IMG/VR virus record: IMGVR_UViG_3300050821_002644
Span: 1-54,206 of that record
Length of the DNA: 54,206 bases
From: a virus
Direction: 5' to 3' (one strand)
Positions 23,795 to 47,440 of this stretch are shown here, piece after piece. Both the position numbers and the translations under genes were made by a program. A model generated the notes under the pieces. The model did no database searches and was not told where the DNA came from. It was given only the letters and a program-made list of their open reading frames with translations. Each line of letters opens with the position of its first letter. Position 1 is the stretch's first letter.

Positions 23795-23799
23795 CTCTC

Positions 23800-24224: not shown

Positions 24225-24292
24225 GTGTTTAATCCCTACTTCCTGTTCGAACCATGCGATCGGATGATGGAAGAACCTGCTATGGTGCTGTG

Positions 24293-27440: not shown

Positions 27441-27456
27441 TTCTTTCCTCCGCCGA

Positions 27457-27483
27457 GGGGGCAGGATCCTTCGTCCTGCCCCC
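27457..27483. terminator. Hairpin before dpdA
   Basis: GGGGGCAGGA (27457-27466) pairs with TCCTGCCCCC (27474-27483) around TCCTTCG. It lies between the stop of the Acb2-like gene and dpdA and may partly terminate or process the transcript. No U-run follows on the minus strand. Confidence 0.7.
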
Positions 27484-27491
27484 GAATCGTC

Positions 27492-27758: not shown

Positions 27759-28059
27759 GCTTACCGAACATCTCCCTTGTTGATACGAACCCCTGAGCGT
27801 CTGCTGCAGGATGCTTTTCGACCAGCTTCTGCACTGAGGCACGAAGCATGTACAGCTTGATGTATAGCATGCGAGAGTAGTTGTTCAGGTCAAGAAGTTC
27901 CTGCATTGCCTCTTCGAAGGTGTCTACCTCAAGGAACTTGAGGGGGCCGTATTTCTTGGCCCCCATGTCCATTCTCTCGGCCGACTGAGTCACGAAGTCT
28001 AGGTCGGCCGCCGCTAGCAGCTCGGCCAAATCGAATTTCGTTGACTCGTCGTTTGGCAC
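27751..28059 (-). CDS. MazG-like nucleotide pyrophosphohydrolase (small)
   Basis: 102 residues from GTG 28059 with GGAGG six bases upstream. GAKKYGPLKFLEVD and then FEEAMQELLDLNNYSRM give an EExxE-like helix pair typical of all-alpha NTP pyrophosphohydrolases. It may adjust the dNTP pool, for example around deazaguanine nucleotides. The first 131 bases overlap the MazG-like gene before it. Confidence 0.6.
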   Translation of the reverse strand: MPNDESTKFDLAELLAAADLDFVTQSAERMDMGAKKYGPLKFLEVDTFEEAMQELLDLNNYSRMLYIKLYMLRASVQKLVEKHPAADAQGFVSTREMFGKHD

Positions 28060-28384
28060 GGTAGGCCTCCAAGGGGTCTGTATCGAGTTCGGCGAAGATG
28101 TTCATGAGGTAGACGAAGACGTCGGTGGCTTCGTCCCGAGCCCGTTCCTTCATCTGGCTCTCGGAGGATGTGCCCCTAGCCCACTTCTTGACCTCGTTGG
28201 CAAGCTCGCCTACCTCGCCAGCGAGTGAGAGGACTTGGAACACGAGGTCGTCAGCAGTGTCGGGGAACCAGTCATGCGAGTCCTGCTGACACTCGAGTGC
28301 GATGCTTCTCAGGTCCGCAGGCTGACCTGGAGGCTTGTTGAGCTGTCGGGTCTGTTTACTTCCTGCCATGTAAGGTTCGTTCAT
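27929..28384 (-). CDS. MazG-like NTP pyrophosphohydrolase
   Basis: 151 residues; start in an ATGA overlap with folE. LSLAGEVGELANEVKKW and DEATDVFVYLMNIFAEL supply the metal-binding ExxE and ExxD of MazG-type enzymes. AYRAKRRVNEIRFG ends the domain near residue 118. The last 30 residues (RAASGGRPRLRDSV and on) look like chance readthrough inside the next gene. It would hydrolyse nucleotides to pyrophosphate and NMP. Confidence 0.8.
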   Translation of the reverse strand: MNEPYMAGSKQTRQLNKPPGQPADLRSIALECQQDSHDWFPDTADDLVFQVLSLAGEVGELANEVKKWARGTSSESQMKERARDEATDVFVYLMNIFAELDTDPLEAYRAKRRVNEIRFGRAASGGRPRLRDSVGRENGHGGQEIRPPQVP

Positions 28385-28989
28385 TTGCCTATCGCTCTCA
28401 GGAATTCGTCCTTGGCTGTTCGGTCGTGCTCACCGAAGTGACCACGCATGGTTGCTGTGTACGTAGTAGTACCCGGAGCTTGCACCCCCCTTATAGTCAT
28501 GCACAGATGCTCACACTCCATGACTACTGCGACGTGTTCGGTACCGAGATGCTTTGTCAGCTGCTCAGCGATCTCGGCGGTGAGCTCTTCCTGGACGGAA
28601 AGCCCCTTGCTAAGTGCCTTGACCAGTCGAGGGATCTTACTCAGTCCCGCTACCGTCTGCTCAGGGATATAACCGACCTGAGCGTATCCTCTGAACGGGA
28701 TGATATGGTGAGCACACACGCTGATGACAGGAACCTGCTTGATGACGACCATGTCACGACTCGTTGCAGGGAAGGTCGTGAACTCGAACTTGTCAGGAGT
28801 CGTTAGCTCCCGAAGCATCTGGACGAAACGCTTCGGAGTGTTCTTGGCGTGAGGACTCGAAGGATCCATCTTCGCTACGTCGATAAGCAGGTACTCTGCT
28901 AGTCCGTAGACGTTGGCGAATCTGGTGTGCGCAAGTTCCTCGTCCCACTCGTCACGATCAGGTTCCACGTGTGTGCGCTCCATATACAT
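28381..28989 (-). CDS. folE: GTP cyclohydrolase I
   Basis: First step of preQ0 synthesis: GTP to dihydroneopterin triphosphate. SVCAHHIIPFRGYAQVGYIP and ECEHLCMTIRGVQAPG hold the zinc Cys/His and catalytic His; SKIPRLVKALSKGLSVQEEL is the usual substrate helix. About 202 residues from ATG 28989; an ATG at 28983 is close. Lies between queE and the MazG-like gene in one overlapping operon. Confidence 0.95.
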   Translation of the reverse strand: MYMERTHVEPDRDEWDEELAHTRFANVYGLAEYLLIDVAKMDPSSPHAKNTPKRFVQMLRELTTPDKFEFTTFPATSRDMVVIKQVPVISVCAHHIIPFRGYAQVGYIPEQTVAGLSKIPRLVKALSKGLSVQEELTAEIAEQLTKHLGTEHVAVVMECEHLCMTIRGVQAPGTTTYTATMRGHFGEHDRTAKDEFLRAIGK

Positions 28990-29659
28990 AGTTGTGAACC
29001 TGGACGTTGAGGATCCAGGGAAGTCGTCGAAGCTTGATCCACTCAACAAGCTGTGATGCAGGAAGCTTGTCCCAGACAGGACCTACGTACACAGGAAGCT
29101 TAGGTCCGCCGTCAACGTACTTCTGCCAGATGGTAAGAGCCTCTTCGAAGTCGTTCCTACCTGCGATAGTGAACTTGAGTGCGCCCTGGCCGTATTGCAT
29201 CATCTGCTCTACGTTGTCAACGCGTACTTGGCTGAACTTGCCTTCACCTGAACCTGAGAGCTTCCAGTCCATCACTGGCTGAAGACCTCGGTCCATCATC
29301 TCCAGATCAAAGGGAAGTGTCCCATTCGTAAACGCTTCGAACGTGAAGGCCTCTCCGTCTAGCTCGGTCATTGTCTGACGTAGATTCGCCCTCGGTTGAA
29401 GAAAGGGCTCGCCGCCGGTGAAGACGATGTTGCGAGCTCCATTGGCGCCCTCCATTCGTCTGATGCGGCTGGCGAGCTCCTGGGGTGAAACGCTGATGTA
29501 GCTGTCTTTGAACAGCTTCGGTTCGATAGCGAACTGCGAGTCACAAGGCCACAGGGGGCAGCGAAGGTTGCAGCCTGCGAAGCGCACGAACTGACTCATG
29601 ACGCCGACACTAGGGCCTTCACCTTGTGTCGACGTGTAGTGCTCAAGCAGTCTCAGCAT
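28958..29659 (-). CDS. queE: 7-carboxy-7-deazaguanine synthase
   Basis: Radical SAM enzyme contracting the carboxytetrahydropterin ring. HYTSTQGEGPSVG and VFTGGEPFLQP are family hallmarks. The cluster reads GCNLRCPLWPCDSQ, a CX3CX4C spacing instead of the standard radical SAM CX3CX2C. Length 233 from ATG 29659; an ATG at 29680 is an alternative. It overlaps queD upstream and folE downstream. Confidence 0.9.
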   Translation of the reverse strand: MLRLLEHYTSTQGEGPSVGVMSQFVRFAGCNLRCPLWPCDSQFAIEPKLFKDSYISVSPQELASRIRRMEGANGARNIVFTGGEPFLQPRANLRQTMTELDGEAFTFEAFTNGTLPFDLEMMDRGLQPVMDWKLSGSGEGKFSQVRVDNVEQMMQYGQGALKFTIAGRNDFEEALTIWQKYVDGGPKLPVYVGPVWDKLPASQLVEWIKLRRLPWILNVQVHNYVYGAHTRGT

Positions 29660-30107
29660 CCCAGTCCCAACTCGCTGCATTGACAGCTGTTTCCTGAACG
29701 GTCAGAGTGATCGCTGTGATCCCGTTAGGCTGCCACATCTTCTGACACCACTCGCCGATCCAGCGCGCTAGGTTCTCCGTTGTCGGATCTCCGTCGAGCT
29801 TCATCAGACCTGGTAGGAGACGTTCACTACCATCTCCATATCGCTGTTCAGGGTCCTGATCCTGAGCCCAAGGGTCTTCTCGGTTGAGGAGGAGTCGATG
29901 ATCGAACCATGTGTCGAGGTGGTTTCGGTAGTTGAGCTTGACGCCGCCGAAGTCGAGTCCGCAGACCATTCCCTTGTCGTCGACAGGTCCGACCATCTGC
30001 AGGAGAGCGTTGAAGGAGTGTCCGTGAATTGCCTCGCACTTGCCTTCAGTGAGGTACAGCCGATGGGCTGCCTCGAAGTTGTGAATGACAGCGATTGACT
30101 GCGTCAC
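29643..30107 (-). CDS. queD: 6-carboxytetrahydropterin synthase
   Basis: Converts dihydroneopterin triphosphate to 6-carboxytetrahydropterin. NFEAAHRLYLTEGKCEAIHG and HSFN supply zinc His residues and the catalytic Cys; DHRLLLN, DPTTENLARWIGEW and LTVQETAVNAA are standard. 154 residues; GTG start in a GTGA overlap with queC. Confidence 0.93.
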   Translation of the reverse strand: MTQSIAVIHNFEAAHRLYLTEGKCEAIHGHSFNALLQMVGPVDDKGMVCGLDFGGVKLNYRNHLDTWFDHRLLLNREDPWAQDQDPEQRYGDGSERLLPGLMKLDGDPTTENLARWIGEWCQKMWQPNGITAITLTVQETAVNAASWDWDAETA

Positions 30108-30832
30108 TTAGTGCTCGCCTTCTCGATCTGGGTACGCCAGTAGTTCTCGTCCTCGTATGCGGTCTCGTCGTACACGAACGCTCCTGAGTCGTGAATGGCT
30201 TCGAGCCTCTCGACACAGGTACCGCATCGCCCGCAGTGAATCTTGTCGCCCTTGTAGCACGACCAGGTCAGTGCGAGAGGAACCTGAAGACGCATCGCGA
30301 CCGAAGCAATGTCGGTCTTCGACATCTTGATGAATGGAGTCAAGAGACCCCACTCACGGGGCACGAACCCTTCGTTTGCTAGCTTCATAGCAGCTTCGAA
30401 CTCGCGCCAGAACGCCGGACGACAATCAGGGTAGATAGCCGCGTCTCCATTGTGCGGCGCCAAAGCTACGTACTGGCCTCCTCGCGCAACGCATACCCCT
30501 GTGGCGATCGTTGCCATGATGGCGTTCCGGTTGGGGACCACCGTCTGCTTCATGTTCTCTTCAGCGTAGTGACCCTCAGGCACTTCTGAGTGGGCGATGT
30601 CGACAAGAGCCGATCCACCCTCAGCAAGGGCTTCACCGACTCGGCCGATATCGATACAGTCCCATCGAAGGTTGAGTCGCTCTGCCGCTGCCTGTGCGTA
30701 GTCCAACTCCTTACGGTGCCGCTGAAGGTAGTTGAAGCTAATCACGTCGGGGTTGTAACCCATCGCGACCAGATGATACAGCAAAGTCACGCTGTCGAGC
30801 CCGCCACTGACGACAGCGATACCATCACTCAT
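30104..30832 (-). CDS. queC: 7-cyano-7-deazaguanine (preQ0) synthase
   Basis: ATP-dependent conversion of carboxydeazaguanine to preQ0. VVSGGLDSVTLLYHL is the PP-loop; VPNRNAIMATIATG and WSCYKGDKIHCGRCGTCVER give the zinc cysteines. 242 residues, normal length. No amidotransferase domain is fused, so preQ0 rather than archaeosine base is the likely end product. Overlaps the primase-helicase by ATGA. Confidence 0.95.
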   Translation of the reverse strand: MSDGIAVVSGGLDSVTLLYHLVAMGYNPDVISFNYLQRHRKELDYAQAAAERLNLRWDCIDIGRVGEALAEGGSALVDIAHSEVPEGHYAEENMKQTVVPNRNAIMATIATGVCVARGGQYVALAPHNGDAAIYPDCRPAFWREFEAAMKLANEGFVPREWGLLTPFIKMSKTDIASVAMRLQVPLALTWSCYKGDKIHCGRCGTCVERLEAIHDSGAFVYDETAYEDENYWRTQIEKASTK

Positions 30833-32988
30833 GCCTTTACCTCTTCCAGGCTGTTGTATGAAGTAGAGCGGCCCTCTCCGCCCTTAGTGATCAAGCCACG
30901 TGCTATGAGGGTCTTTTCGATGTCGTCCATCTCTCTTGCCATGAGATGGTACGTCTGCATGAGCCGCGATCGAGACATGCTACCCTTCTTCTGGATAGCC
31001 TTCAGTACCAGTCCGATCTTGTGCTCAGCGCTTCCTTGACCAACGTTGACAATGATGTCTTGAGCGTATCGTCGCCACACATCTCCATAGGCAGCAGCAC
31101 GGGCGATATCAAGCGCACCAACCACCACCTCCTCCTCGCATCTAGTCGCCGCAAGGAGGCAAGACGCCTTGAGTATGCTTCCGGCGAGGCGGACGTACAT
31201 AGGCACCAGAGTCTCAGCCCGCTCGGGTCCACTTTCAACTCCTAGGTGCGTCAACGTCTGCTCGACCTTGTTGTAGCGATCCCACGCCTCTGGTGTCAAC
31301 GTGACCTCTTTGACAACACGCTGCACACCGACGACCTTGCCTCCTAGCTCGATCGGTGCAGTAACGTCGTGTGTCTTGGCAATCTGTTGTAGTTCCATGA
31401 TGATCCGGTCGCGCCCCTGAGTTTGAGCAGCCACAGGGGGACCTAGAGGCCTTACGCGCTTTGGATCAGAGTCAGCTGTGATGAAGACGAATCGAGGAAG
31501 GAATCCTGACTCTACGTCAGCATGGTCAAGGATGCGTAGCATTTTAGATTTGATCCCGCCCGCGAAGATAATCAGACGTGGCTCGCGGATGGTAATCTCT
31601 TCCTTACGGAGCAGACGCTTCTGCAACTTGCCATCGTAGAGCTTGGTGAAGAACTCCTTCATTCCGGACATGTAGTCTTTCTTGTTCATCTGCTCCATCA
31701 GACCTGTGAACTCGTCACGAAGGAACAGACTTGGCTTGTTAGGACGAGCTGCCATCGCGGTCATGAGACCTTCGATCGATCCGTCCGTAGCCATTAGCGC
31801 TGTGTCATCAATCTCCGTAAGAATGTCTGTCGCCAAGTCCATCGCAGTAGACTTTCGGGTCAAAGTCGTATCTGCGAGGATCATGAACCAAAGATTTGGA
31901 GTTAGCGATCCGTACTGCGTCAGGAGTTTGAGCGAACCAGATAGCAAACATGAAAGAAGAACGAATGCGCCTGCTTCGTGATACTGCACTGCCGCGTCGC
32001 CAACTGACTTGGCCCAATCGATGTACCGTTCTATGAATGATGGGTGCTTGTCGAGCCAGGCCTTCTCTTCTGGGGTGACGAGAGCGGGCTCATTACTAGG
32101 CGGCGCCGTAGCGAGCCGTATCTGGTCCGCATGACGACTAGATGCGCGACATACGTCTTTCCAGAGTCGAAGGTCATTGTCACTGAACTTGTTACAGGCG
32201 GCGTCTCTACATACTTGGAACGTCTCCGCCAGGCTGAGGTTAGCCTCGAGACAATACATCTCCAGGCGGAAGAGTGCTGAGCTCCTGTCTCCCTCTGGTG
32301 CTTGGAAGTAAAGGTGGTGTGCTGCCCCGTTGATCTTGTATGAGAACCGCTCAAGGATCTCACTTCCCTTCTCAGGGATCATATCGTCAGGGAACGGAAT
32401 GTCTAGATATTCATATCCCTCGACGGGAGGATAAGCACTGAATTCCTCAAGGGCGTGTACGTCATCATTCCAGACCAGGATGCTGACCTTAGGAGCATCG
32501 CCTCCGGATCCGTACTTGAAGTTTTTAGTACCAGGTATCCTGAGTAGCTGAGTGAGGTCCCATCCCGATCGATCACTACCCTGACCCGCATGACCATACG
32601 CGACTCGTCTCGAAGCGTCTTCAGCATCTTCCGCTTCGATGGGCTCATCCAAAGCCCAAATCGCCTGATATCGTCCAGGGCTTGTTTCCCAAGCGCAGGT
32701 AGGAGGGAACAGCAGAAGATCAGGACTGCAATCGTCGAGATCGCTCCAAACACACTGGACCAGTCCCACATTTGATTTGATTCGCCTCCTATCGGTCAGT
32801 AGCTGCGGGCAGAAGTAGACGTTCTTGTACAGCCCCTCGTTCCTGATGTGACTAAGCATCGCGTCGGACTGTTCTGGCCATTTGAAGAACTGTTCCTCGA
32901 AGACACCGCCAGTCTTGCGCGTCGCTATACAGGCATAGCCAGTTGTCTGCCCATACGATGATGCGAAGAAGTCTCCGAGACCCGCCAT
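30829..32988 (-). CDS. Primase-helicase
   Basis: 719 residues from ATG 32988 (AGAGGA upstream; GTG 33003 is longer). The N-terminal 200 residues look like an archaeo-eukaryotic primase/RepB-like domain with VWSDLDDCSPD supplying the acidic pair. From about 320 a DUF3987-type helicase domain has ILADTTLTRKSTAMD, a Walker A without the usual glycines, and SLFLRDEFTGLM as Walker B. A C-terminal winged helix (KKGSMSRSRLMQTYH) follows. It should prime and unwind DNA for PolA. Confidence 0.8.
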   Translation of the reverse strand: MAGLGDFFASSYGQTTGYACIATRKTGGVFEEQFFKWPEQSDAMLSHIRNEGLYKNVYFCPQLLTDRRRIKSNVGLVQCVWSDLDDCSPDLLLFPPTCAWETSPGRYQAIWALDEPIEAEDAEDASRRVAYGHAGQGSDRSGWDLTQLLRIPGTKNFKYGSGGDAPKVSILVWNDDVHALEEFSAYPPVEGYEYLDIPFPDDMIPEKGSEILERFSYKINGAAHHLYFQAPEGDRSSALFRLEMYCLEANLSLAETFQVCRDAACNKFSDNDLRLWKDVCRASSRHADQIRLATAPPSNEPALVTPEEKAWLDKHPSFIERYIDWAKSVGDAAVQYHEAGAFVLLSCLLSGSLKLLTQYGSLTPNLWFMILADTTLTRKSTAMDLATDILTEIDDTALMATDGSIEGLMTAMAARPNKPSLFLRDEFTGLMEQMNKKDYMSGMKEFFTKLYDGKLQKRLLRKEEITIREPRLIIFAGGIKSKMLRILDHADVESGFLPRFVFITADSDPKRVRPLGPPVAAQTQGRDRIIMELQQIAKTHDVTAPIELGGKVVGVQRVVKEVTLTPEAWDRYNKVEQTLTHLGVESGPERAETLVPMYVRLAGSILKASCLLAATRCEEEVVVGALDIARAAAYGDVWRRYAQDIIVNVGQGSAEHKIGLVLKAIQKKGSMSRSRLMQTYHLMAREMDDIEKTLIARGLITKGGEGRSTSYNSLEEVKA

Positions 32989-33011
32989 TGCATTCCTCTT
33001 CACCTCTCAAA

Positions 33012-33077
33012 GGGTGGGGCCTACTGCTCGCTTGTCTCTGCCGGCGAGACTGCGCCTGTATCCAGTAGACCCCACCC
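33012..33077. terminator. Long hairpin before the primase-helicase
   Basis: GGGTGGGGCCTACTG (33012-33026) pairs with CAGTAGACCCCACCC (33063-33077), with an inner CTCGC/GCGAG stem. It lies between the ssDNA-binding-like gene and the primase-helicase, and could attenuate transcription or separate the two messages. Confidence 0.8.
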
Positions 33078-33084
33078 AGTTCAG

Positions 33085-33582
33085 TTACGGAAGGATCCCA
33101 CCAGCCGCGGCAGCCTTACGCTGGCCACCAGTGGTGTTGGCTTCGCCTTCCTTGTACGGAGAGAACCCACGCACCTCGATCCACGATGCGGGGTCGTCCT
33201 CGGGGTTCTTGGCCTTCGTCTTCTTGTTCAGACCGCGTCGCACCATCAGACGCCTGCCGATGTAGAACTCAGGAGCGTCGGGGATGTCGAGACCATCACC
33301 CTGGGTCGCGTTCTCGTACTCGTCCAGAGCCTTGAGCATCCCGACGATGGTGTAGAGAGCGCCGTCCCAGCAGCACGCGGTCCACTTGATCTGACTGTCA
33401 GCGTGCTCGCCCGACTGGACGTCCGCCGTGAACTTCAGCAGCGGCTTGCCGGGGTTGTTCTCCGACTGCGAGTCAGCCGGCTCGACCTCAGTGATGATGC
33501 AGTCGTACAGGCCCGACGGAAGTCCAAATCCACCCTCACCGGACTTGGCTTCCTGGTCTGACATGTTGACTTTGATTGCCAT
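33085..33582 (-). CDS. ssDNA-binding-like protein (DUF669)
   Basis: 165 residues. FGLPSGLYDCIITEVEPADS and then NPGKPLLKFTADVQSG follow the DUF669 pattern found beside phage recombination ATPases, thought to act as SSB. RRLMVRRGLNKKTKAKNP is basic and could bind DNA. It lies directly downstream of the Sak4-like ATPase, the usual pairing. Confidence 0.75.
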   Translation of the reverse strand: MAIKVNMSDQEAKSGEGGFGLPSGLYDCIITEVEPADSQSENNPGKPLLKFTADVQSGEHADSQIKWTACCWDGALYTIVGMLKALDEYENATQGDGLDIPDAPEFYIGRRLMVRRGLNKKTKAKNPEDDPASWIEVRGFSPYKEGEANTTGGQRKAAAAGGILP

Positions 33583-33595
33583 GTGTGTTCTCGTT

Positions 33596-34648
33596 TCAGC
33601 TGTGAATGAGTTCGTAGATGTTGTGCATGTTGGGTTCGGTTACGACCAACGGCAAGTTGCCTGAGCGGTCCTTAGTGACGTAACCCTCTAGCGCACCGGT
33701 CAGCAGGTACCGGTTGATGACTGTAGCCTTGCTTTCGTCTCCCTTCTCTCCTTCCTTGGTGTAGAGATACATTACCTGGTCGAACAGGCCTGCTACCTGG
33801 TTCGCCTGCTTGCCGGGCAGGTCAGGACGCTTCCACTGAATGCCCTTGTTGTCCCGCTCGACAGTCTCGTGGCAGAGGAAGATGAAGTTCATCGGCAGGT
33901 TGCGGAAGAGCCTCATGTACTTCCTCATTGCATTACCCGAAGCTCCCCAGTCGTGGAGGTCGGGCACGTCAGGATCGTGATCTGGTCGGCGCTTGATCGC
34001 ACGAGCCATCACGTCGTCCATGTTGATCTTCTGTAGCTCAGTGCCAGTGTCAATCGTCACCGTGCGGAAGTCAGGCTTGTCCTTGCTGTTGTAGCACTGG
34101 CGATCGAGCTCGTCGTAGACGGCTTCGAACTGGTCCCATCGAATACCTGACTGCAGCATTGGATCGGGAATCACCATCAGGTTGTCGCCGACTTTTGCTC
34201 TGAACTTGAGGAGAGTGTTCGCACCAGCTTCGGCGTTGACGTACAACATGGGCGCAAGATGCTTACTCAACGCCCCTGTGGCTGCTACGTGAGTCTTGCC
34301 CGCACCAGGCTGGCCGTAGATCATGTTGTTGACGAACGGCTTCACCTGAGCGACGGTAGCCATCGGAATGCCTGCGAAGGTCAGTGCGCCAACCTTCTGT
34401 TCGACGAAGGTCTTCGGCTTCTCTCGAGCCTGGTGGTCCTCATGTACGATCTGCTCGTGTGACGGACCACCTTCTTCATCAGGCATCGGAGCAGGAGCTG
34501 CAGGCGGAGCGAGCGTCTGGTTCTCAGTCACGGAGTCGCTAGCAGCAGTGTCGTTGTCCGCAGGTCCTTCAGACTGTGACTCTTCTGCATACTTCGACTT
34601 CTCTTCAGGCGTCGCCATGAGGTCGTCGTCTGGGATGATATCAGGCAT
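33596..34648 (-). CDS. Sak4-like RecA-family ATPase
   Basis: 350 residues. The first 100 are acidic and disordered. MIYGQPGAGKTHVAAT is Walker A (its codons hold a CCACAGGGG motif), FRTVTIDTGTELQ is Walker B, and NFIFLCHETVERD is the sensor strand. Phage Sak4-type proteins aid single-strand annealing with an SSB partner. TAATG overlap with the nuclease gene. Confidence 0.8.
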   Translation of the reverse strand: MPDIIPDDDLMATPEEKSKYAEESQSEGPADNDTAASDSVTENQTLAPPAAPAPMPDEEGGPSHEQIVHEDHQAREKPKTFVEQKVGALTFAGIPMATVAQVKPFVNNMIYGQPGAGKTHVAATGALSKHLAPMLYVNAEAGANTLLKFRAKVGDNLMVIPDPMLQSGIRWDQFEAVYDELDRQCYNSKDKPDFRTVTIDTGTELQKINMDDVMARAIKRRPDHDPDVPDLHDWGASGNAMRKYMRLFRNLPMNFIFLCHETVERDNKGIQWKRPDLPGKQANQVAGLFDQVMYLYTKEGEKGDESKATVINRYLLTGALEGYVTKDRSGNLPLVVTEPNMHNIYELIHS

Positions 34649-35829
34649 TAGTTGCTTAGTCCTTTGTCAGTTGAGGGTGCGTTGAGGACGTAGTACCTTG
34701 GTTTGATTTCGAACATTGTGTCAAGTGCGTACTGGTAATCGTTACCCTGATCCATGTCGATACACGGCTGCTGGAAGGCACAATCGCTACAAGCGAATCG
34801 TCCTGGGGACTTGTAGCGAGCGGTTGCAGGGTCGATCATCTCGCGTGCCTGCTCAAGTAGTTCCTTCTGGAACATGTCGAGCTGCTTGTCAGTCTTGTAG
34901 ATAGTGTGCGTCTCGATGTACTTGGTGCCCTCGTCCTTCAGCCAGGCAATGAACTCGTTGTACAGTCCTGCCTTGTAGGCTTCGGGATCGCCTGCCTTGA
35001 CAGTCTCGATGTAGGTGTCGACGTCGGTCGTCTGGCTCTGACTGACTGAGTACGCTCGACCAAGACGAGTCACCTTCAGCTTCTGCGGTGGCTCTGGGTA
35101 ACCCTTCCGAAGCTCGATGTACTTGAACCCGCGGATGCCTAGCTTCAGCTTCCTTCGTAGGGCCCATACGTAACCTGTGACCTGATCGTCAATCTCGAGG
35201 ATGATGTCAGCGTCCTCTGTCATCATCCGAGCTGTCGTCTTCCAGTCACCGATCCAGTAGTTGCCCCACTTGTCCCGAAGGATGATGTCGATCCGACCCT
35301 CGAAGACGACTGGCAGTCCTAGCCAAGTCTGTCGACCATGATTGCCGAATGCTTGTACATGCTTCTTCCAGCACAAGTCGCACTTGCACATGAGCTGGTT
35401 ACCCTGCTCATCGAGAATCGGGACCTGGAACGTCTCCTCGACCCTCACCACTGTGAACTCAGCCACAGGGAGCTGCTCGTTGACGTACCAGTAGATCATC
35501 CCTACGCCGAGCTGGACGAGCTTCTCGTAGTCGCGCTCCTTCTCATCGTCAGGTCCGTAACGCTCAGTGACTCGAAGGTAGTTCGACTTCTGTTTGGCGC
35601 ACTCTTCACGGAACGCTGCCTCTGCGAACTGAGCGATCAGGGTACGTGGAGCTCCCCAAGTCTCAGGGTTGTACATCGCTTCCATAGCCTTATGGAAGGC
35701 GATTCCGAACTCGAGAGGTATCGCAGTTCTGACTGGCTGACGGTTCTCGTTGAATGCCCAGTTGTGCCTACGACGGCAGCCGCGGTACGACCGGAGCTCA
35801 GTCGTATGTATCTCATGCACAAGGTCCAC
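34648..35829 (-). CDS. Cas4/RecB-like PD-(D/E)XK exonuclease
   Basis: 393 residues from GTG 35829 with AGGGGG eight bases upstream. VVFEGRIDIILRD and NYWIGDWKTTARM provide the D...DxK active site. C-terminal FACSDCAFQQPC plus an N-terminal YRGCRRRH Cys suggest an iron-sulfur cluster as in Cas4 and AddB. It would process DNA ends for the Sak4 recombination pathway. First gene after promoter 35850. Confidence 0.85.
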   Translation of the reverse strand: MDLVHEIHTTELRSYRGCRRRHNWAFNENRQPVRTAIPLEFGIAFHKAMEAMYNPETWGAPRTLIAQFAEAAFREECAKQKSNYLRVTERYGPDDEKERDYEKLVQLGVGMIYWYVNEQLPVAEFTVVRVEETFQVPILDEQGNQLMCKCDLCWKKHVQAFGNHGRQTWLGLPVVFEGRIDIILRDKWGNYWIGDWKTTARMMTEDADIILEIDDQVTGYVWALRRKLKLGIRGFKYIELRKGYPEPPQKLKVTRLGRAYSVSQSQTTDVDTYIETVKAGDPEAYKAGLYNEFIAWLKDEGTKYIETHTIYKTDKQLDMFQKELLEQAREMIDPATARYKSPGRFACSDCAFQQPCIDMDQGNDYQYALDTMFEIKPRYYVLNAPSTDKGLSN

Positions 35830-35849
35830 TGATAACCCCCTAGAGATTA

Positions 35850-35879
35850 AGTATATCTCAGGTCACTCGGGGAACACAA
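35850..35879 (-). promoter_or_regulatory. Minus-strand promoter of the replication genes
   Basis: Read leftward: TTGTGT (35874-35879), 18 bases, TATACT (35850-35855). The flanks CTTGTGTTCCC match the promoter at 47506-47535. It lies about 20 bases before the nuclease start. Confidence 0.8.
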
Positions 35880-35889
35880 GAGGTTCCTA

Positions 35890-36024
35890 TTACTCTGTAT
35901 TACTTGGCTTCTTGCCTGTGTACTTCGCTACCAGTACCTCTCGAATGGAGAAGACGAGTATGGCGAAGGCTACGAGGCTGAAGAAGGCTACTATGCCCCA
36001 GAGGGCTACGTCGTTGTCAGTCAT
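35890..36024 (-). CDS. Small single-span membrane protein
   Basis: 44 residues: short polar start, one membrane span (LWGIVAFFSLVAFAILVFSI) and a basic end. GGAGAAGG precedes the ATG at 36024. Coupled to the upstream gene by an ATGA overlap. Function unknown. Confidence 0.7.
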   Translation of the reverse strand: MTDNDVALWGIVAFFSLVAFAILVFSIREVLVAKYTGKKPSNTE

Positions 36025-36176
36025 TGTTCCTTCTCCGTCGCGTTTCCTAGGTCGCGCAGAAGTACGGCTGTCTGGTAGTTGGTCGTGTACCCGTGCTTGC
36101 GTAGCTCTTCCCATACCTCGCGGAAGCTGTCGGCGTCAGCCTCTGTCGGGAACTCCACTAGGACTAGATTGTTCAT
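36021..36176 (-). CDS. Small alpha/beta protein, unknown
   Basis: 51 residues, MNNLVLVEFPTEADADSFRE and onward. A strand, an acidic turn and a helix resemble the first half of a ferredoxin-like fold, similar in plan to the two genes before it. ATGA overlaps on both sides show coupling. Confidence 0.7.
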   Translation of the reverse strand: MNNLVLVEFPTEADADSFREVWEELRKHGYTTNYQTAVLLRDLGNATEKEQ

Positions 36177-36418
36177 AGTGGATCTCGCTCAGCGAGTTCT
36201 TCCGGGCTGACAACGACCATATCTGGTCCCTGAAGCAGCTGGCGGATCTTGCCTTCGAGCTTCTCGGCCTGTTCGTCATCTTCGAAGGCGATCTCGAACA
36301 TGACACGAGATCTAATTGGTGTCGCTAGGTAGGCCGGTGGACTGCCTGGGTACAGTCTCTCCAGCTTCAGATCGAACTGAATCATCCCCGGTATCGGAGG
36401 CGGGTCGTCGATCGGCAT
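36173..36418 (-). CDS. Small alpha/beta protein, unknown
   Basis: 81 residues with a Pro-rich start and VMFEIAFEDDEQAEKLEGKI, a pattern repeated in the upstream gene (AVILDFKDDQAAEKLMELL). AAGGGAG lies nine bases before ATG 36418. The start lies 107 bases inside the upstream gene. Confidence 0.65.
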   Translation of the reverse strand: MPIDDPPPIPGMIQFDLKLERLYPGSPPAYLATPIRSRVMFEIAFEDDEQAEKLEGKIRQLLQGPDMVVVSPEELAERDPL

Positions 36419-36851
36419 TGTTTAGGCTCCCTTCAGGAGTATCAGTAGCAGAAGTGCTCCCTGCAGAGTCAGCACTATCAGCCACTTCAGGGGGATTGGC
36501 TTCAGCAGCCAGTCGATCCTTGATCGCTTTGAGTTGATTCCTGGACTGCATGCAGAGGTTGACGTACCAGTTTCTGACAACAGTCTTGTGCGGACGGAAG
36601 CACTGGGGACAAACGAACCAGCCAGTACCCACTGCTCGTGTCCAGCCCTGTACTCTTCCTTTACGACGGCATTCGCAACCACGCACAGGACGAGGAAGCA
36701 GAGCCACTGGCTTTGCGTGTGCTGCCAGAATGGTTGCCATGGCAGTTGGTGTTCCATCTTCATCAGGTGTTTCCTGAGTCCTGATGAGCAGCTCCATCAG
36801 CTTCTCTGCTGCTTGGTCGTCCTTGAAGTCGAGAATGACTGCTCTGGCCAT
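36312..36851 (-). CDS. Putative zinc-binding protein, unknown
   Basis: 179 residues. MARAVILDFKDDQAAEKLME forms a small alpha/beta unit; CECRRKGRVQGW and FVCPQCFRPHK form a Cys4-type zinc site at about residues 59-84; the rest is Ser/Asp-rich and low in complexity. The end of the frame runs into the next gene, so the last 35 residues may be non-functional. Confidence 0.6.
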   Translation of the reverse strand: MARAVILDFKDDQAAEKLMELLIRTQETPDEDGTPTAMATILAAHAKPVALLPRPVRGCECRRKGRVQGWTRAVGTGWFVCPQCFRPHKTVVRNWYVNLCMQSRNQLKAIKDRLAAEANPPEVADSADSAGSTSATDTPEGSLNNADRRPASDTGDDSVRSEAGETVPRQSTGLPSDTN

Positions 36852-37011
36852 ACTTCTTGTCTTCCTTCCCTATGAGGAACTGAATTTCGCCTAGCTCCTG
36901 ACATACGCTGTCATAGTCGTATTCCTCTAGGAGTCTGAGTATGTTTTCTAGGTGCTCCTTCTTCTGCATAAGCTCGCCAAATGTCATATAGCGAACCGGT
37001 ACGCTAGGCAC
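36763..37011 (-). CDS. Small helical protein, unknown
   Basis: 82 residues, helical coiled segment YMTFGELMQKKEHLENILRL. The last 25 residues are Ser/Arg-rich chance-like coding within the next gene. Start GTG 37011 is uncertain; an ATG is at 36987. Confidence 0.5.
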   Translation of the reverse strand: MPSVPVRYMTFGELMQKKEHLENILRLLEEYDYDSVCQELGEIQFLIGKEDKKYGQSSHSRLQGRPSSREADGAAHQDSGNT

Positions 37012-37261
37012 CCTTGAACCAGATGTGAATCGCTAGTACCACTGCGACGATGATGTAGACGCCGAAGCTTGCGTACCAGGAGATTGTCGGTACGAAGTGC
37101 TTGTGCACGCCGAGTTCGAACCAGCTGTAGTCCGACAACGTGTTGTTGGGGTTGGTGATGAGCGCGAAGATCTCAGGTCCACCGATGATGACGGAAACCA
37201 AGAGCATCGCGAACGGCCAGTAATACTTACCCCAGGTCATCACTTGCTGGACTTTGTCCAC
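37004..37261 (-). CDS. Two-span membrane protein
   Basis: 85 residues with membrane spans near 17-37 (FAMLLVSVIIGGPEIFALI) and 61-80 (SFGVYIIVAVVLAIHIWF). GTG start at 37261 with GGAG upstream. Unknown role; could sit in the host membrane early in infection. Confidence 0.65.
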   Translation of the reverse strand: MDKVQQVMTWGKYYWPFAMLLVSVIIGGPEIFALITNPNNTLSDYSWFELGVHKHFVPTISWYASFGVYIIVAVVLAIHIWFKGA

Positions 37262-37451
37262 GATGTTTCATCTCCGTTCCGCTAATCGCTACGAAGTCGA
37301 GATCGACCTTCTTCCACTTACCAGTGGGTTGTCCATCTGTGTCAAGGACTTCATAGGCGAGCTTCTTGACATGCTGCATCGAGTCCAGAGCGAGCCGTGC
37401 TGCTGCGTGATCTTCAGGCGAGCCGTTCTGGAGTGCTACGATAAGCATCAT
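37227..37451 (-). CDS. Small protein, unknown
   Basis: 74 residues, MMLIVALQNGSPEDHAAARL and then KKLAYEVLDTDGQPTGKWKK. Compact alpha/beta pattern. ATGA overlap with the upstream gene and a 35-base overlap with the membrane gene. Not recognised. Confidence 0.6.
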   Translation of the reverse strand: MMLIVALQNGSPEDHAAARLALDSMQHVKKLAYEVLDTDGQPTGKWKKVDLDFVAISGTEMKHRGQSPASDDLG

Positions 37452-37600
37452 GACTCATGCCGTCCTGACGCTTCCACCGACACCTCGACGCCCTTCTCGA
37501 AAGCTCGGTGCTTGATGTCTTCGCAAGAATCGGCGGCCTTGTGGTAGTGGATGATCTCGATGCACTCGTCCCGACGCGTAGTCGCAGCAGCTTGTGCCAA
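37448..37600 (-). CDS. Small helical protein, start uncertain
   Basis: The convincing part is ATLAQAAATTRRDECIEIIH followed by HKAADSCEDIKHRAFEKGVE, helical and Cys-containing. I propose TTG 37600 (50 residues) since the frame upstream to 37747 runs inside another gene. No strong ribosome site is seen. Confidence 0.45.
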   Translation of the reverse strand: MAQAAATTRRDECIEIIHYHKAADSCEDIKHRAFEKGVEVSVEASGRHES

Positions 37601-37646
37601 GGTAGCCTGTTCATTGATTTCCCTCTCGTCGTAGACGTAAGAGTGT

Positions 37647-38222
37647 CTAGGCCTTACGACCCTCGCGGAGGGCGACGTTGAACGCCACTCCGACGAGATG
37701 GCAGAAGGTCCGGATTCGCTTGAAGTGCTTCCGATTGGCTCGAGCATTGATTCGCTCCTGCTCCTCGTCCCAGATCTTGATTAGTTCGTCGGTCTCGTCG
37801 CCTGGCTGGTCGAACAGCTGAGTTGCGTGCTCTGGCTCTCGGATGACCTCGCCGCGGTGAATTGTTCCCATCGGCTTCTCGAGGTATGGCTCAGCGACAG
37901 GCTTGAGGTTGTATCGCTTCTCTCGTTGGTCGAAGGCCGTCTGCAGAGCTGCCATCGTATCGGCGACTGGATCGAAGCGCATCGGGATACGGCAGGTGAA
38001 CTGATCCTTCATACGCACGATAGTCCGATCGACAGTCGCGCGCATCTTGTCTCGATTGACCCGTGCGTACATGTCACGGGTGAACTCTGGAGCCAGTACC
38101 CCTGTGGACTTTGTCATAAGGTCGTCGAACATCGGCATGCGGAACGACCCAGTGGATTCGAGGTCGGGCTTGTACTCAGGGTCGAGAGGACAGGGACCTT
38201 CATAAGTCTGGTAGACCGTCAT
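37647..38222 (-). CDS. Hypothetical protein
   Basis: 191 residues, charged. VNRDKMRATVDRTIVRMKDQ and AALQTAFDQREKRYNLKP are helical. A basic stretch and a weakly hydrophobic end (FCHLVGVAFNVAL) close it. ATGA overlap with the gene before it. Not recognised. Confidence 0.6.
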   Translation of the reverse strand: MTVYQTYEGPCPLDPEYKPDLESTGSFRMPMFDDLMTKSTGVLAPEFTRDMYARVNRDKMRATVDRTIVRMKDQFTCRIPMRFDPVADTMAALQTAFDQREKRYNLKPVAEPYLEKPMGTIHRGEVIREPEHATQLFDQPGDETDELIKIWDEEQERINARANRKHFKRIRTFCHLVGVAFNVALREGRKA

Positions 38223-38605
38223 GAGTTGTCTCCGAACTGCTTGAGGTCAAGATTGTTGAGGTCGAGCTTGCCGTTACCTGCTACGAGCTGCATCGCGATC
38301 GCGTCGCGAAGGGCCTTGCATCCCTGCTCGATCTGCTCGTCGATGAATTCCTGATCACGCACGTACTGGGGGATCATCGTGATCTGAGCAGGATCGTGTT
38401 CCGGTCCGATGAGTCGCCCCTTGGCGGTGTAGATGCAAGCCACCATAGGCATCGGACCGTGAGGTGTCTGACCTATCTGCATGTTCACGTCGACACGGAT
38501 GATCTTGATCCCGAAGCTGAGTCGCTTCAGAGCATCCATGAACATCGGCTCGAGAGCGTCGACGGAGGACTCGACGTTGTCAGCTAGCAAGGTACTGCTC
38601 CTCAT
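38219..38605 (-). CDS. Hypothetical protein
   Basis: 128 residues. Strand-rich middle (FGIKIIRVDVNMQIGQTPHG, then MVACIYTAKGRLIGPEHDPA) and an acidic Asn/Asp/Leu end. Starts 26 bases inside the helicase gene. Function unknown. Confidence 0.6.
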   Translation of the reverse strand: MRSSTLLADNVESSVDALEPMFMDALKRLSFGIKIIRVDVNMQIGQTPHGPMPMVACIYTAKGRLIGPEHDPAQITMIPQYVRDQEFIDEQIEQGCKALRDAIAMQLVAGNGKLDLNNLDLKQFGDNS

Positions 38606-40064
38606 CTACGTTGTCGCCCAGGATAAGAGCGAGCTGGCTCCACTTGTTCGCGATGCGCTGCATGCGTCCAAGGTCTACGGTGTTGCGCGCAACGATGTCA
38701 ATGATCTGGACAGGATTTTTCTGACCGATGCGATGAAGCCTGTCCTCTGCTTGTCGGTTACGAGTTGGATTCCAAACTCGGTCGAGGAAAATCGCGGTCG
38801 ATGCACGGTGGAGCGTGATACCTTCACCGCCAGCAGCGATGGTACAAGCCAGAACCTGTACGTGTCCAGACTGGAACTTTTGAACCGCGTCATCACGGTC
38901 ACGTTGTGACACGTCACCCGTGTATGCCCTAGTCTCGATTCTCTTACTACGAAGGGTCCGAACTGTGAGGTTGACCATAGATTTCGACTGGGTGAAGACG
39001 ACAAGGGGTTCGTTGGGATTTCCATCGATGATCTCCTCAAGAGCATCTAGCTTGGCTGATGGTAGTGTCATCTCGCGGACGTGTCCATCCGTAGTAACCA
39101 CAGGGGAAGCTAGCGCCATTTGCTGTAGTCTGACTAGCTGGGAAATCACCGCAGTAGCCACAAAGGGCACGTCTCTTTGCTCTCCCATCCAAGCAAGCAT
39201 GTCCTTACGCATTTCATCGTAAGTCCGACGCTGCTGGGATCCGAGGTCGATGTATCGGGAGGTATATGTCTTCGGCGGAAGATCAATACCCACATCCCTC
39301 TTCTTACGGCGAACGTAGTGCGGGGCGATGGTAGAGAGCATACGTTCGGCACCTTCGGGATTCACCCCCTGGATCTTCTTGAAGGTTCTTCCGTACTTGA
39401 GCTTCTGCAGTTCAGTGTCTTCGAACACGCACGTCTGGTTGACGAACTTCCAGTACGAACGGTAGGTCTTCGGCCAGAGCCAGTTCAGAACCGACCAAAT
39501 GTCTTGCGGTTTATCATCCGCGGGAGTGCCGGAGAGACCTGTCTTGTACTTCGTATCCAAAGCCTTGAGAGCTCGAGTCTGTTGCGATGCTCGATTTTTG
39601 ATTCGGTGTACTTCGTCTGCGATGATGTGGAACCACTTGACATATTTCAGCTCATCAATCAGCCGTAGGCCCTCGTAGTGCATGATGAAGTAACATGCAG
39701 TTGCTATGTTCGGATCAATACGCCAGTCTTCCCAGTCCTTGAGGGCGTTGATGAAGGGCTGACGGTTCTTCCGATCGATGATTCGGATTAGAGTAGGACG
39801 GTTGTCCTCGAGCCAGCTGTCGTTGTAGGCCATGATCGAATCAGCCCAATCAGGATGCGTACCTGAGGGCGCGACGATCAGAGTAGGACGACGGTAGGCG
39901 TACTTGTCCTTGCGTAGGTCTCCGTCTACGGCAAGACCCTCATATGTCTTTCCTAGGCCCATATCGTCCGCGATGAGACGTGACGTCCCCATCGCCGTGT
40001 TCTGAGTGTATGTCTTCCACCCAACCTTCTCGACGCACTGGATCTGGTGTTCGTAGAGCTTCAT
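38580..40064 (-). CDS. SNF2-type helicase/translocase
   Basis: 494 residues with all core motifs: ADDMGLGKTYEGLAV (I), FHIIADEVHRIKNR (II), TGLSGTPADD (III), VVFTQSKSMVN (IV) and RQAEDRLHRIGQKNPVQI (VI). Short phage SNF2-like enzymes remodel or translocate on duplex DNA, perhaps in replication or recombination. CGAGG lies before the ATG, which sits inside the upstream membrane gene. Confidence 0.92.
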   Translation of the reverse strand: MKLYEHQIQCVEKVGWKTYTQNTAMGTSRLIADDMGLGKTYEGLAVDGDLRKDKYAYRRPTLIVAPSGTHPDWADSIMAYNDSWLEDNRPTLIRIIDRKNRQPFINALKDWEDWRIDPNIATACYFIMHYEGLRLIDELKYVKWFHIIADEVHRIKNRASQQTRALKALDTKYKTGLSGTPADDKPQDIWSVLNWLWPKTYRSYWKFVNQTCVFEDTELQKLKYGRTFKKIQGVNPEGAERMLSTIAPHYVRRKKRDVGIDLPPKTYTSRYIDLGSQQRRTYDEMRKDMLAWMGEQRDVPFVATAVISQLVRLQQMALASPVVTTDGHVREMTLPSAKLDALEEIIDGNPNEPLVVFTQSKSMVNLTVRTLRSKRIETRAYTGDVSQRDRDDAVQKFQSGHVQVLACTIAAGGEGITLHRASTAIFLDRVWNPTRNRQAEDRLHRIGQKNPVQIIDIVARNTVDLGRMQRIANKWSQLALILGDNVDEEQYLAS

Positions 40065-45457: not shown

Positions 45458-45740
45458 CGGGAGCGTCTTCCACGGTGACGACCTTGGTCAGGTTGTCGCA
45501 ACCCTCGAGCTGCTCGTCGAGGGAGATGTCGGCGGTAGTCTCTTCGTAGTGCTTGATCGCGTCGTTGGTCCAGTTCTTCTCGCCGGACTCTTCGTCGTCG
45601 TAGTCCGAGCGCGCTATCGAGATCACACCCGTTGCCACGATGGTCACCTTGACGCGGCGGCTGAGCTCCTGGTTGCCGCTGAAGGGCTCGTTCGTTCCCG
45701 GACCAGTAGTGAATCCAGGACCGCTATTGCCTTCGCTCAT
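45450..45740 (-). CDS. Small acidic protein, unknown
   Basis: 96 residues. Gly/Pro-rich start, then SRRVKVTIVATGVISIARSD and an acidic helical end. ATGA overlap upstream. Not recognised. Confidence 0.65.
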   Translation of the reverse strand: MSEGNSGPGFTTGPGTNEPFSGNQELSRRVKVTIVATGVISIARSDYDDEESGEKNWTNDAIKHYEETTADISLDEQLEGCDNLTKVVTVEDAPDE

Positions 45741-46159
45741 GATGCTGCCTCCTCTAGAAGGATTTGTACCTGCTGCTCCAGCGTGTCGATGCGCTGCAGC
45801 ATCGCTCGCTGAATGTCGTCAACACCTTCTCGCCAGGTGTTGGGCTTCTTCTTCTGACTCTCTACACGTTCGAAGGCCTCGATGTCAGGCTCGTGCATGA
45901 GCTCCCAGAGCGATGGAGTCGGTCCTCCGCCTCGAGCGAGCTGACGAACACAACCCATAGCCTTCAGGTAGTGCATGACGCTCGTGTAGTACGGAGTAGC
46001 CAGACCTAGGTCTTCGCAGATCAGCTTGGTCAAGAAACCTTCGTACACCAAAGCATGACTGCCTTCGACCTGTCGTGCCTTGCTCTGTGCCTTCATCTTC
46101 TCGAAGACTGCAGAGCAGTGCAAGAACAGCCTAGGAGGGGCTTCAGTCCGGTTGTCCAT
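45737..46159 (-). CDS. Putative winged-helix regulator
   Basis: 140 residues. ALVYEGFLTKLICEDLGLAT followed by YYTSVMHYLKAMGCVRQLAR looks like a winged-helix pattern for promoter control. The C-terminus (QRAMLQRIDTLEQQVQILLE) is a coiled coil for dimers. Inferred from pattern; no close family recalled. Confidence 0.55.
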   Translation of the reverse strand: MDNRTEAPPRLFLHCSAVFEKMKAQSKARQVEGSHALVYEGFLTKLICEDLGLATPYYTSVMHYLKAMGCVRQLARGGGPTPSLWELMHEPDIEAFERVESQKKKPNTWREGVDDIQRAMLQRIDTLEQQVQILLEEAAS

Positions 46160-46361
46160 CTTCGATTGCTTCCTTAATGCGTTTGATCGAGGTGATGATC
46201 TCGCTGTACGAGCCTGCTCGCCCTAGAAGGTCTTCCCAACCTTTGGCTGGTTCCTTCGTGTCGTTGTGCATCGCGTCCGTGAACGCTTCTTCTTCTAGGT
46301 CCAGCACATCGTTCAGAGTCTGGATGTCATCATCTCGGACCTTGATGTTAATGATGTTCAA
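46143..46361 (-). CDS. Small acidic protein, TTG start
   Basis: 72 residues. I choose TTG 46361 because GGAGGT lies seven bases upstream; the open frame further back runs through the stem-loop at 46389-46446. VRDDDIQTLNDVLDLEEEAF and then YSEIITSIKRIKEAIEDGQ are acidic helices. Role unknown. Confidence 0.6.
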   Translation of the reverse strand: MNIINIKVRDDDIQTLNDVLDLEEEAFTDAMHNDTKEPAKGWEDLLGRAGSYSEIITSIKRIKEAIEDGQPD

Positions 46362-46388
46362 TGTATTACCTCCATAGGCCAATTGAGA

Positions 46389-46446
46389 GGCCGTCGCAGC
46401 TGCTGCCCCAATGGGGGGGGGTATTAGGGCGCTAGCTGCGACGGCC
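46389..46446 (-). terminator. Strong hairpin after the tRNA-like RNA
   Basis: GGCCGTCGCAGCT (46389-46401) pairs with AGCTGCGACGGCC (46434-46446). The loop has nine G in a row on the + strand. It lies about 90 bases downstream of the RNA at 46533-46658 in the leftward direction, and just before the next gene. Confidence 0.75.
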
Positions 46447-46532
46447 CCGTGCATATCGTGGACACCTCAGGACAAGTCACTCGGAAGTGAGTGTCAAGCC
46501 CTATAAGGTCTTCCTCATCCACCTCTGCACGT

Positions 46533-46658
46533 GGGAGTAGCTGGTCTCGAACCAGCCCTTGCGGCTTGTCGCGGCAAGTGGGCCTCCAGTACGTCTAGGC
46601 TGCCTCGCCGACCCGAAGGTCCAGGCATGCTCCTCTGTACTGTCTATCCGATACTCCC
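46533..46658 (-). ncRNA. tRNA-like RNA with atypical body
   Basis: Read leftward: GGGAGTA (5' acceptor) pairs with TACTCCC (3' acceptor, then discriminator A). Directly before the 3' acceptor is GCTGG-TTCGAGA-CCAGC, a perfect five-base T-stem and seven-base T-loop. The rest does not fit a D-arm or anticodon arm. It holds a CAGTAC/GTACTG stem, with GACC-TTCG-GGTC inside, and a CTTGC/GCAAG stem. At 126 nt it is longer than any normal tRNA. No CCA is encoded. It may be a tRNA mimic, a tRNA with an insertion, or a decayed tRNA. Confidence 0.6.
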
Positions 46659-46699
46659 TACCCATGGACGAGAAAAGGGATTAAATCGCCCACGAGGGT

Positions 46700-46797
46700 G
46701 TGAACAGGGACACCAGTGCCTGGTTTGGACGTTCCGTACTGCGGGTGCCTCCGATGACGGAAACTAGCCGACACTCAGCAGCGTTGTCCCTGTTCAC
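46700..46797. repeat. 13-bp inverted repeat
   Basis: GTGAACAGGGACA (46700-46712) is the exact reverse complement of TGTCCCTGTTCAC (46785-46797), with a 72-base loop. Together with neighbours at 46389-46446, 46533-46658 and 46805-46853, it makes this gap (46447-46930) rich in RNA structure. Probably a terminator or part of a structured transcript. Confidence 0.75.
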
Positions 46798-46876
46798 GTT
46801 GACAGGTGAAGGTCTCGTACTCAACTATGGCAAATCTTTCTGAGACCTTCACCACGCGGATACGCCCGACTTGCAT
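46775..46876 (-). CDS. Possible 33-residue protein, or readthrough tail
   Basis: MQVGRIRVVKVSERFAIVEY then ETFTCQREQGQRC looks protein-like. It is in the same frame as the gene at 46931-47440, after its TAG stop, with no further stop for 51 codons. The ATG (46876) has no good ribosome site. Either a short separate gene, or an extension made when TAG is read through. Confidence 0.35.
   Translation of the reverse strand: MQVGRIRVVKVSERFAIVEYETFTCQREQGQRC
46805..46853. repeat. 12-bp inverted repeat
   Basis: GGTGAAGGTCTC (46805-46816) pairs exactly with GAGACCTTCACC (46842-46853), with a 25-base loop. It lies 78 bases after the stop at 46931, in the leftward direction, so it may end that transcript. 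Confidence 0.75.
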
Positions 46877-46930
46877 CTCGGCTGGCGGCGACGGTGCTCC
46901 ACTTCCGTTCCGCGGTATCCTCCAGTCGAC

Positions 46931-47440
46931 CTACTCGACTTCGGCGAAGTCTCCGTCCTCGACTTCGTCGCCGGCCTGCTCCGAGACACTGCCTGCCGCA
47001 GCGGTCTGGGCGGCCTCCACCTGCGCATCGTCGGCCGGGGCAGCAGCTTCCGACGTGGCGGCGGATCCTTCAGTGGTGCCCTTGTTCGCCAGACGCTCCT
47101 TGCGGCGCAGGAACCAGGCGACGGCGTCTTCGAGAACCAGACCCGGTCGGGTGACCTTGTTGCCGTCCGGTCCACCCTTGACGTCGTGGGCGGTGCCGTC
47201 CTCCTCGTAGTGCTTGACGGGGAAGGGGTCGGCCTGCTTCGGGCTCGAGCTGTTCACGAAGGTGTAGAACACCTGCGGCTTGGTGTCCTTCGGCGCGTGA
47301 CCCTTCTGGACCAGGTGGTTCTTGACCTGGATCGGCGTCACGATGCCGTCGGGCAGCGGGAAGCGGGTGTTGCCAGTCGCGTTCGCCGCCGGGGCTGCCG
47401 CGGTCTCAGTCTCCTGAGTCTCCGTCTCGGTCTCAGCCAT
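46931..47440 (-). CDS. Acidic/Ala-rich protein with own promoter
   Basis: 169 residues. A middle folded part (FPLPDGIVTPIQVKNHLVQK, then PQVFYTFVNSSSPKQADPFP and LVLEDAVAWFLRRKERL) is flanked by low-complexity Glu/Thr/Ala tails. Strong promoter at 47506, a GGGGAA/TTCCCC leader hairpin and GAGGGAG before the ATG suggest high expression. Function unknown; possibly an abundant early host-interaction or DNA-binding protein. Confidence 0.7.
   Translation of the reverse strand: MAETETETQETETAAAPAANATGNTRFPLPDGIVTPIQVKNHLVQKGHAPKDTKPQVFYTFVNSSSPKQADPFPVKHYEEDGTAHDVKGGPDGNKVTRPGLVLEDAVAWFLRRKERLANKGTTEGSAATSEAAAPADDAQVEAAQTAAAGSVSEQAGDEVEDGDFAEVE

Follow-up and report, generated by a model that had tools for sequence, protein, structure and literature searches.

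Candidate tRNA-derived RNAs with a retained top half and a remodelled body in a phage lineage

A virus record of 54,206 bases from IMG/VR (IMGVR_UViG_3300050821_002644, hereafter the window) carries a predicted 126-nt RNA that joins the acceptor stem and T-arm of a tRNA to a body unlike that of a tRNA. It lies at exactly 46533–46658 on the minus strand, with its 5' end at 46658; the original prediction, made from the letters alone, had given this span and named no strand. Judging from the sequences of this RNA and of its counterparts in related phages, we conclude that it belongs to a tRNA-derived group whose members retain the top half (acceptor stem and T-arm) and are free to vary the codon-reading half. 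The evidence suggests that these elements did not arise as chance folds and form a genuine class of phage RNA that is easy to overlook. We regard them as real because of their strand bias (29 matches to 4) and placement between open reading frames (ORFs), because of features that the search did not request (a following ACG and a T at T-loop position 60), and because of compensatory changes between homologous pairs.

The tRNA-like RNA of the window

The acceptor stem is built from GGGAGTA (46652–46658, minus strand) and TACTCCC (46533–46539), which form Watson-Crick pairs at 7/7 positions, as had been predicted. Directly 5' of the 3' acceptor strand lies the T-arm GCTGG-TTCGAGA-CCAGC (46540–46556) with a 5/5 T-stem. 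In the free fold the mean pair probability is 0.89 in the acceptor and reaches 1.00 in the T-stem. The T-arm had been called perfect, which is right for its pairing; in its loop, however, position 60 is an A, a base found there in only 1 of the 25 elements described below; because of this A, the unconstrained fold contains a U54-A60 pair. The acceptor is immediately followed by ACG (46530–46532), that is, a discriminator A73 and CG, and CCA is not encoded.

The 7-bp acceptor and the 5-bp T-stem with a TTCRANN loop are those of a tRNA (RF00005). The rest departs from it: neither a D-arm in its normal position nor a 5-bp anticodon stem with a 7-nt loop and U33 is present, in line with the earlier claim that a normal tRNA body is missing, and the element stays below the RF00005 gathering cut-off. 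Between the acceptor 5' strand and the T-arm is a 95-nt body whose arms were taken from a constrained fold. A long arm is predicted at the place of the anticodon arm (46587–46642), with a CAGTAC/GTACTG closing stem and inner stems, one of which, GACC-UUCG-GGUC (46621–46610), is capped by a UUCG tetraloop (46614–46617); the different set of stems and the UUCG cap that had been noticed between acceptor and T-arm are thus present. A small arm, CTTGC...GCAAG, is predicted at the place of the variable arm (46558–46578), and an alternative 7-bp stem, CGGCGAG/CTTGCCG, is also possible there. Folded freely, the whole element has a minimum free energy of -53.1 kcal/mol (z -2.62). The false antisense frame GVAGLEPAL that had been pointed out corresponds to an ORF at 46531–46767 on the plus strand, which begins VGVAGLEPAL.

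We searched for such elements with a descriptor that requires a TTCRANN loop, a 5/5 T-stem, a 7/7 acceptor, at most one G-U pair in each stem and a length of 55–140 nt. It matches once in the window, compared with 0.015 matches per dinucleotide-shuffled window over both strands (3 in 200 shuffles). Tools aimed at known families were silent: ARAGORN made 0 calls in the window, neither tRNA nor tmRNA, and Rfam gave 0 matches at the gathering cut-off in the window and 0 in 46400–46950 even at E≤10. The covariance-model search that the original prediction had proposed thus returned nothing here. DNA similarity to cultured phages was found neither for 46400–47000 nor for 20000–40000. The 21-nt 3' end of the element had no match in a one-genome-per-species collection of 84,980 species and, as the 5' acceptor strand is also present, an attachment-site copy of a host tRNA was rejected.

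Elements in related phages

Relatives were taken from IMG/VR because no cultured phage matched the proteins tried from A1 and A2, two conserved genes that flank the element. In tblastn searches against cultured phages, the window's A2, the A1 protein of contig L047 and the A2 proteins of L106 and L114 had no match. IMG/VR relatives were found with A2, with A1 and with alignments of both; the window's A1 alone found no relative among viral contigs and the alignments did recover relatives. In the one-genome-per-species collection, searched for prophages and hosts, the A1 alignment found none. Primase matches of the phage are mostly to actinophages and DNA polymerase matches are mixed; mainly because of the former, the uncultured phages of this lineage are probably actinobacterial.

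We collected 16 syntenic gaps, totalling 9,248 bases. These hold seven strict elements in 6/16 contigs, all in the sense orientation, compared with 0 on the antisense strand and 0 in 1000 shuffles. Relaxed criteria added one element in L047 and a second one in L052, so that 7/16 contigs carry at least one. The Rfam tRNA model, run at E≤10 on 18 whole records, matched in 4/18, once each and always in this slot; among 24 further records it matched in 12. Other sub-cut-off Rfam matches in relatives (miRNA, snoRNA and similar families) were rejected as noise.

The descriptor was then applied to 38 further contigs (overlapping pieces) and the window, 39 records with 1,852,448 bases in all. Its first form drew on the window and on what is generally known of tRNAs; both the 55–140 nt range and the G at T-loop position 54 were chosen after some relatives were known, and the census counts are accordingly not fully blind. 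Out of 33 matches, 29 lie on the A2 strand and 4 on the opposite strand. Shuffled records gave 0.75 matches per strand and never more than 3 in any of 40 shuffles; chance may therefore account for a few of the 29 sense matches (G041_12570 is the least convincing). The four antisense matches were not counted as elements, the near-duplicate contigs G039 and G047 were dropped, and the near-duplicates G023, G024 and G048 were not scanned whole. This left 25 elements of 61–129 nt in 16/37 contigs. Among them there are 21 distinct acceptor and 16 distinct T-stem sequences, and CCA is encoded by none of the elements. ARAGORN calls five of the 25 and five pass in Rfam.

The pairing and the TTCRA (or GTCRA) loop are no evidence that the elements are real, because the descriptor demanded them. 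Several other properties are more informative. ACG follows the acceptor in 12/25 elements, the window's included, against a background of 0.020; the recurrence has P about 2e-14 if the elements are taken as independent, which related elements are not. T-loop position 60 is T in 20/25, the window not among them. The elements cluster in the same genome region, between ORFs and on the strand of the neighbouring genes. The window element shares the complete acceptor and T-stem, the sense strand, the intergenic place near A1 and A2 and the abnormal body.

Comparison of homologous elements points the same way. Between G016_47873 and G019_29920, 7/12 top-half pairs are changed on both sides and one on a single side, with none broken; here homology rests on position and on short stretches matched by eye, and BLAST did not join the two. 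Between G037_5788 and G038_28154, which share a 42-nt match (88% identical) that includes part of the body, 3/12 pairs are changed on both sides and none is broken. One subfamily conserves part of its body. Covariance in relatives, the check proposed for the window element, was found as compensatory changes in other homologous pairs and had no close homologue to draw on for the window's own copy.

The forms range from ordinary tRNAs, through cloverleaves with a hugely enlarged anticodon loop, to strongly remodelled RNAs such as the window's. An ordinary decoding arm, meaning a 5-bp stem and a 7-nt loop with U33 where a tRNA has them, is present in only 2/25; a third nominal match, in G022_15936, is in the wrong place. 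Contig L068 has a canonical tRNA-Met(CAT) (68.9 bits, also called by ARAGORN) beside a 129-nt odd element at 4180–4308, which has a 7/7 acceptor, three well-paired arms and a body z of -2.77, and L094 has a canonical tRNA-Asp(GTC) (69.2 bits). Intermediate forms are illustrated by G038_25914 (52.6 bits), in which acceptor, D-arm, anticodon stem and T-arm are normal and 45 nt stand where Rfam expects 6, and by G037_7597 (40.6 bits), a near-complete cloverleaf with 53 nt where 13 are expected. The opposite departure was also seen: L121 1501–1568 (G036 37550–37617; 39.1 bits) has a shortened anticodon loop region, with 4 nt against an expected 9.

Possible roles and known systems

The top half of a tRNA is the part used by RNase P, 3'-end processing, the CCA-adding enzyme and EF-Tu. 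Since it is exactly this half that is kept while the rest changes, the sequences suggest that the elements are matured and stabilised like tRNAs and then act without codons. We tentatively favour, at somewhat less than even confidence, a tRNA-derived non-decoding RNA whose top half is a maturation and stability handle for a changeable structured cargo. The RNA would be made within a leftward operon transcript, its top half would be recognised as a pre-tRNA by host RNase P, 3'-end processing and CCA addition, and the product would accumulate as a stable RNA. The top half would then be a natural 'tRNA scaffold', with the cargo at the former anticodon arm. A bolder form of this proposal is doubtful: a fast-changing natural scaffold set in which the top half survives solely so that host enzymes mature the RNA, add CCA to it and stabilise it, in which the anticodon half is a changeable RNA device, a decoy or binder, directed against the host, and which gene finders mostly miss because they require a cloverleaf. 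The suggestion that the window RNA is a tRNA mimic stands as regards its tRNA-likeness, given the many independent RNAs with the same acceptor and T-arm, abnormal bodies and the same region and strand, and the accompanying idea of an action on host tRNA enzymes would fit.

Several observations weigh against the handle-and-cargo proposal. Folded alone, the window body is just slightly better than shuffles (z -1.34), and the A at position 60 is unusual. The window body has no BLAST match among the 25 elements, and the searches recovered no element closely homologous to the window's, which leaves its body without a covariation comparison. The relaxed search of the 16 gaps gained only two elements with 6/7 acceptors and doubtful fragments. 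No strict element is present in 21/37 contigs, so the element is not essential. Finally, because the descriptor itself requires top-half pairing, the elements of the set were to some extent bound to have an intact top half.

It is rather unlikely, if conceivable, that the element is a decoy or sponge that offers its acceptor, T-arm and CCA tail to a host protein attacking or modifying the top half of tRNAs. Lacking an anticodon, such an RNA would neither enter translation nor be open to attack by anticodon nucleases, and the rapid turnover and the presence of up to six elements in one locus resemble an arms race. Excerpts of two papers describe phage tRNAs for which a role against tRNA-targeting defences is suggested or demonstrated (PMC10264068; PMC11555353), and in excerpts of a third, Cas12a3 provides a precedent for enzymes whose attack on tRNAs is directed at the acceptor and T-arm (PMC12851939). 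However, neither a target nor a defence system is linked to the elements here, and the phage tRNAs in those excerpts of the defence work are ordinary decoding tRNAs. Decay is improbable as a general account: a once-working phage tRNA would have lost its codon-reading half and the copy would now be neutral. Working tRNAs do occupy the same place in relatives, and the cultured Arthrobacter phage Molivia (NC_042001.1) has annotated tRNA-OTHER genes and, in two tRNAs, abnormal anticodon loops as read by ARAGORN. Decay should, however, break acceptor and T-stem pairs equally often, yet top halves are complete and compensating, bodies gain well-paired arms (as in the 129-nt element of L068), ACG recurs after the acceptor and part of the body is retained in one subfamily. 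The decayed tRNA that had been offered as an option thus fits the set poorly; it may apply to the window's own copy, given its weakly structured body, its A60 and the lack of a close homologue that could reveal constraint.

The chance is smaller again that the elements are RNA punctuation, with RNase P and 3' processing cutting the operon transcript there and separating neighbouring mRNAs and structured RNAs, as mitochondrial tRNAs and t-elements do, and with a body that has no role of its own. The elements do lie between ORFs and some gaps just fit them: L095 512–628 lies between an ORF end at 498 and an ORF start at 637, L106 298–385 between 267 and 405, and L114 1181–1249 between 1097 and 1272. 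Against this, the place in the island varies (nt 8–68 of 691 in L013, 591–839 of 968 in L068), many contigs (21/37) contain no strict element, and the body is conserved in part in one subfamily. That the element is a chance fold, or an attachment site that copies the 3' end of a host tRNA, is very improbable. A single 54-kb window has a 1–2% chance of one such site, but the elements of the relatives are clustered and strand-biased; an attachment site copies the 3' end only, whereas here the 5' acceptor strand is present as well, and the 3' end was unmatched, as noted above.

Among known RNAs, tmRNA also combines a tRNA-like acceptor and T-arm with a non-tRNA body; it differs in that a tmRNA, with its tRNA-like domain and tag reading frame, was recognised by neither ARAGORN nor Rfam in the window. 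Mitochondrial t-elements have a tRNA-like top that needs only recognition by RNase P and RNase Z, and differ in belonging to an organelle, while the phage elements have no fixed place. In the laboratory tRNA scaffold, an intact tRNA top carries an RNA cargo where the anticodon arm would be; the proposed cargo would take the same place here, but the scaffold is engineered and the elements are natural. Molivia, whose primase is distantly similar, resembles the present phages in that some of its tRNA genes have abnormal anticodon loops. For two of its tRNAs, ARAGORN gives anticodons of two and four bases; the loops are off by about one base and the cloverleaf is kept, whereas the body of the window element is largely replaced. 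We also observed genes for RNA ligase and polynucleotide kinase, together with tRNAs, in Molivia (L241 41024–43076) and in Yappy (L242 31479–33496), both of them cultured actinophages with distantly similar primases. This pair of enzymes serves tRNA repair in other phages.

Canonical phage tRNAs, such as those of mycobacteriophage tRNA clusters (excerpts of PMC10264068), share the acceptor and T-arm, and some relatives have true tRNAs in this very slot. Altered anticodon loops have also been described in phage tRNAs before (same excerpts). In contrast to canonical tRNAs, 23/25 elements have no usable anticodon arm and few are called by ARAGORN or Rfam (5/25 each). GOLLD and ROOL are, in excerpts of PMC12286853, large structured noncoding RNAs of phages that occur near tRNAs, and the GOLLD linker sometimes holds tRNAs. 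The likeness is that of a large structured noncoding region near tRNAs; the difference is that the window's island consists of short hairpin modules and that neither model had an Rfam match in it or in the loci of 14 relatives at E≤10. A limited literature search found no account of phage tRNAs without an anticodon, nor of a group of phages whose tRNA-like elements mostly lack the decoding arm. It has long been asked why phages carry tRNAs, and the question is usually framed by codons or by resistance to anticodon nucleases. That 23/25 elements keep the top half without an ordinary decoding arm points to testable, codon-independent functions of phage tRNAs, and counts of phage tRNAs made with cloverleaf finders can miss such a class.

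The noncoding island and its neighbours

The tRNA-like RNA is part of a 569-nt noncoding island (46362–46930, minus strand) between two conserved phage genes. Upstream is gene A1 (46931–47440, 169 aa). Downstream is a conserved small ORF of 72 codons (46143–46361), followed by gene A2 (45737–46159, 140 aa), which was used to find the relatives. A1, the small ORF, A2 and the tRNA-like RNA are all read leftward; A1 and A2 have no Pfam and no PHROG match.

The island is rich in predicted structure, all on the minus strand. A hairpin at 46661–46696 (-15.0 kcal/mol, z -3.1) stands directly upstream of the acceptor. The strong hairpin that had been noticed after the RNA is confirmed at 46387–46448, read from 46448 to 46387 on the 3' side of the RNA end (-46.7 kcal/mol, z -7.7), and precedes the next small gene. 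A second structured module of about 100 nt (46700–46797, z -3.4), with a long closing stem of 12 bp in the predicted fold, adjoins the tRNA-like element and carries the motifs GACAACGCTGCTGAG and CCAGGCACTGGTG. This module is common to the window, L015, L016, L020, L021, L030 and L068 and has no Rfam match. A further hairpin lies within 46806–46855 (z -4.1).

Elsewhere in the window, at 28381–30832 on the minus strand, Pfam identifies adjacent genes for GTP cyclohydrolase I, a radical SAM protein, a PTPS/QueD-like protein and QueC; they make up a preQ0-type pathway, whose purpose is probably the modification of DNA. As preQ0-type genes in phages usually serve DNA modification, these queuosine genes were set aside as an explanation of the element and no link is drawn.

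Other signals recur in the syntenic gaps of the relatives. A TTGACAACTnAATAGA-like motif, absent from the window, is present in 11/16 gaps (L013, L015, L016, L018, L019, L020, L021, L030, L047, L052 and L068); we take it to recall the boxA-type antitermination sequences of rRNA leaders. Further conserved structured stretches were seen by eye, for example around GCAGTGCGAGTCGCGGCG and GTAAGTCGTAGGGCATACCT...AGGTCTAAAAGTGC, in the gaps of L016/L021, L015, L019 and L020 and of L013, L028 and L038. Finally, type II hammerhead ribozymes were found upstream of A1 above the Rfam gathering score in L038 (2305–2368) and L028 (1762–1820), with a weak match in L013 (574–626).
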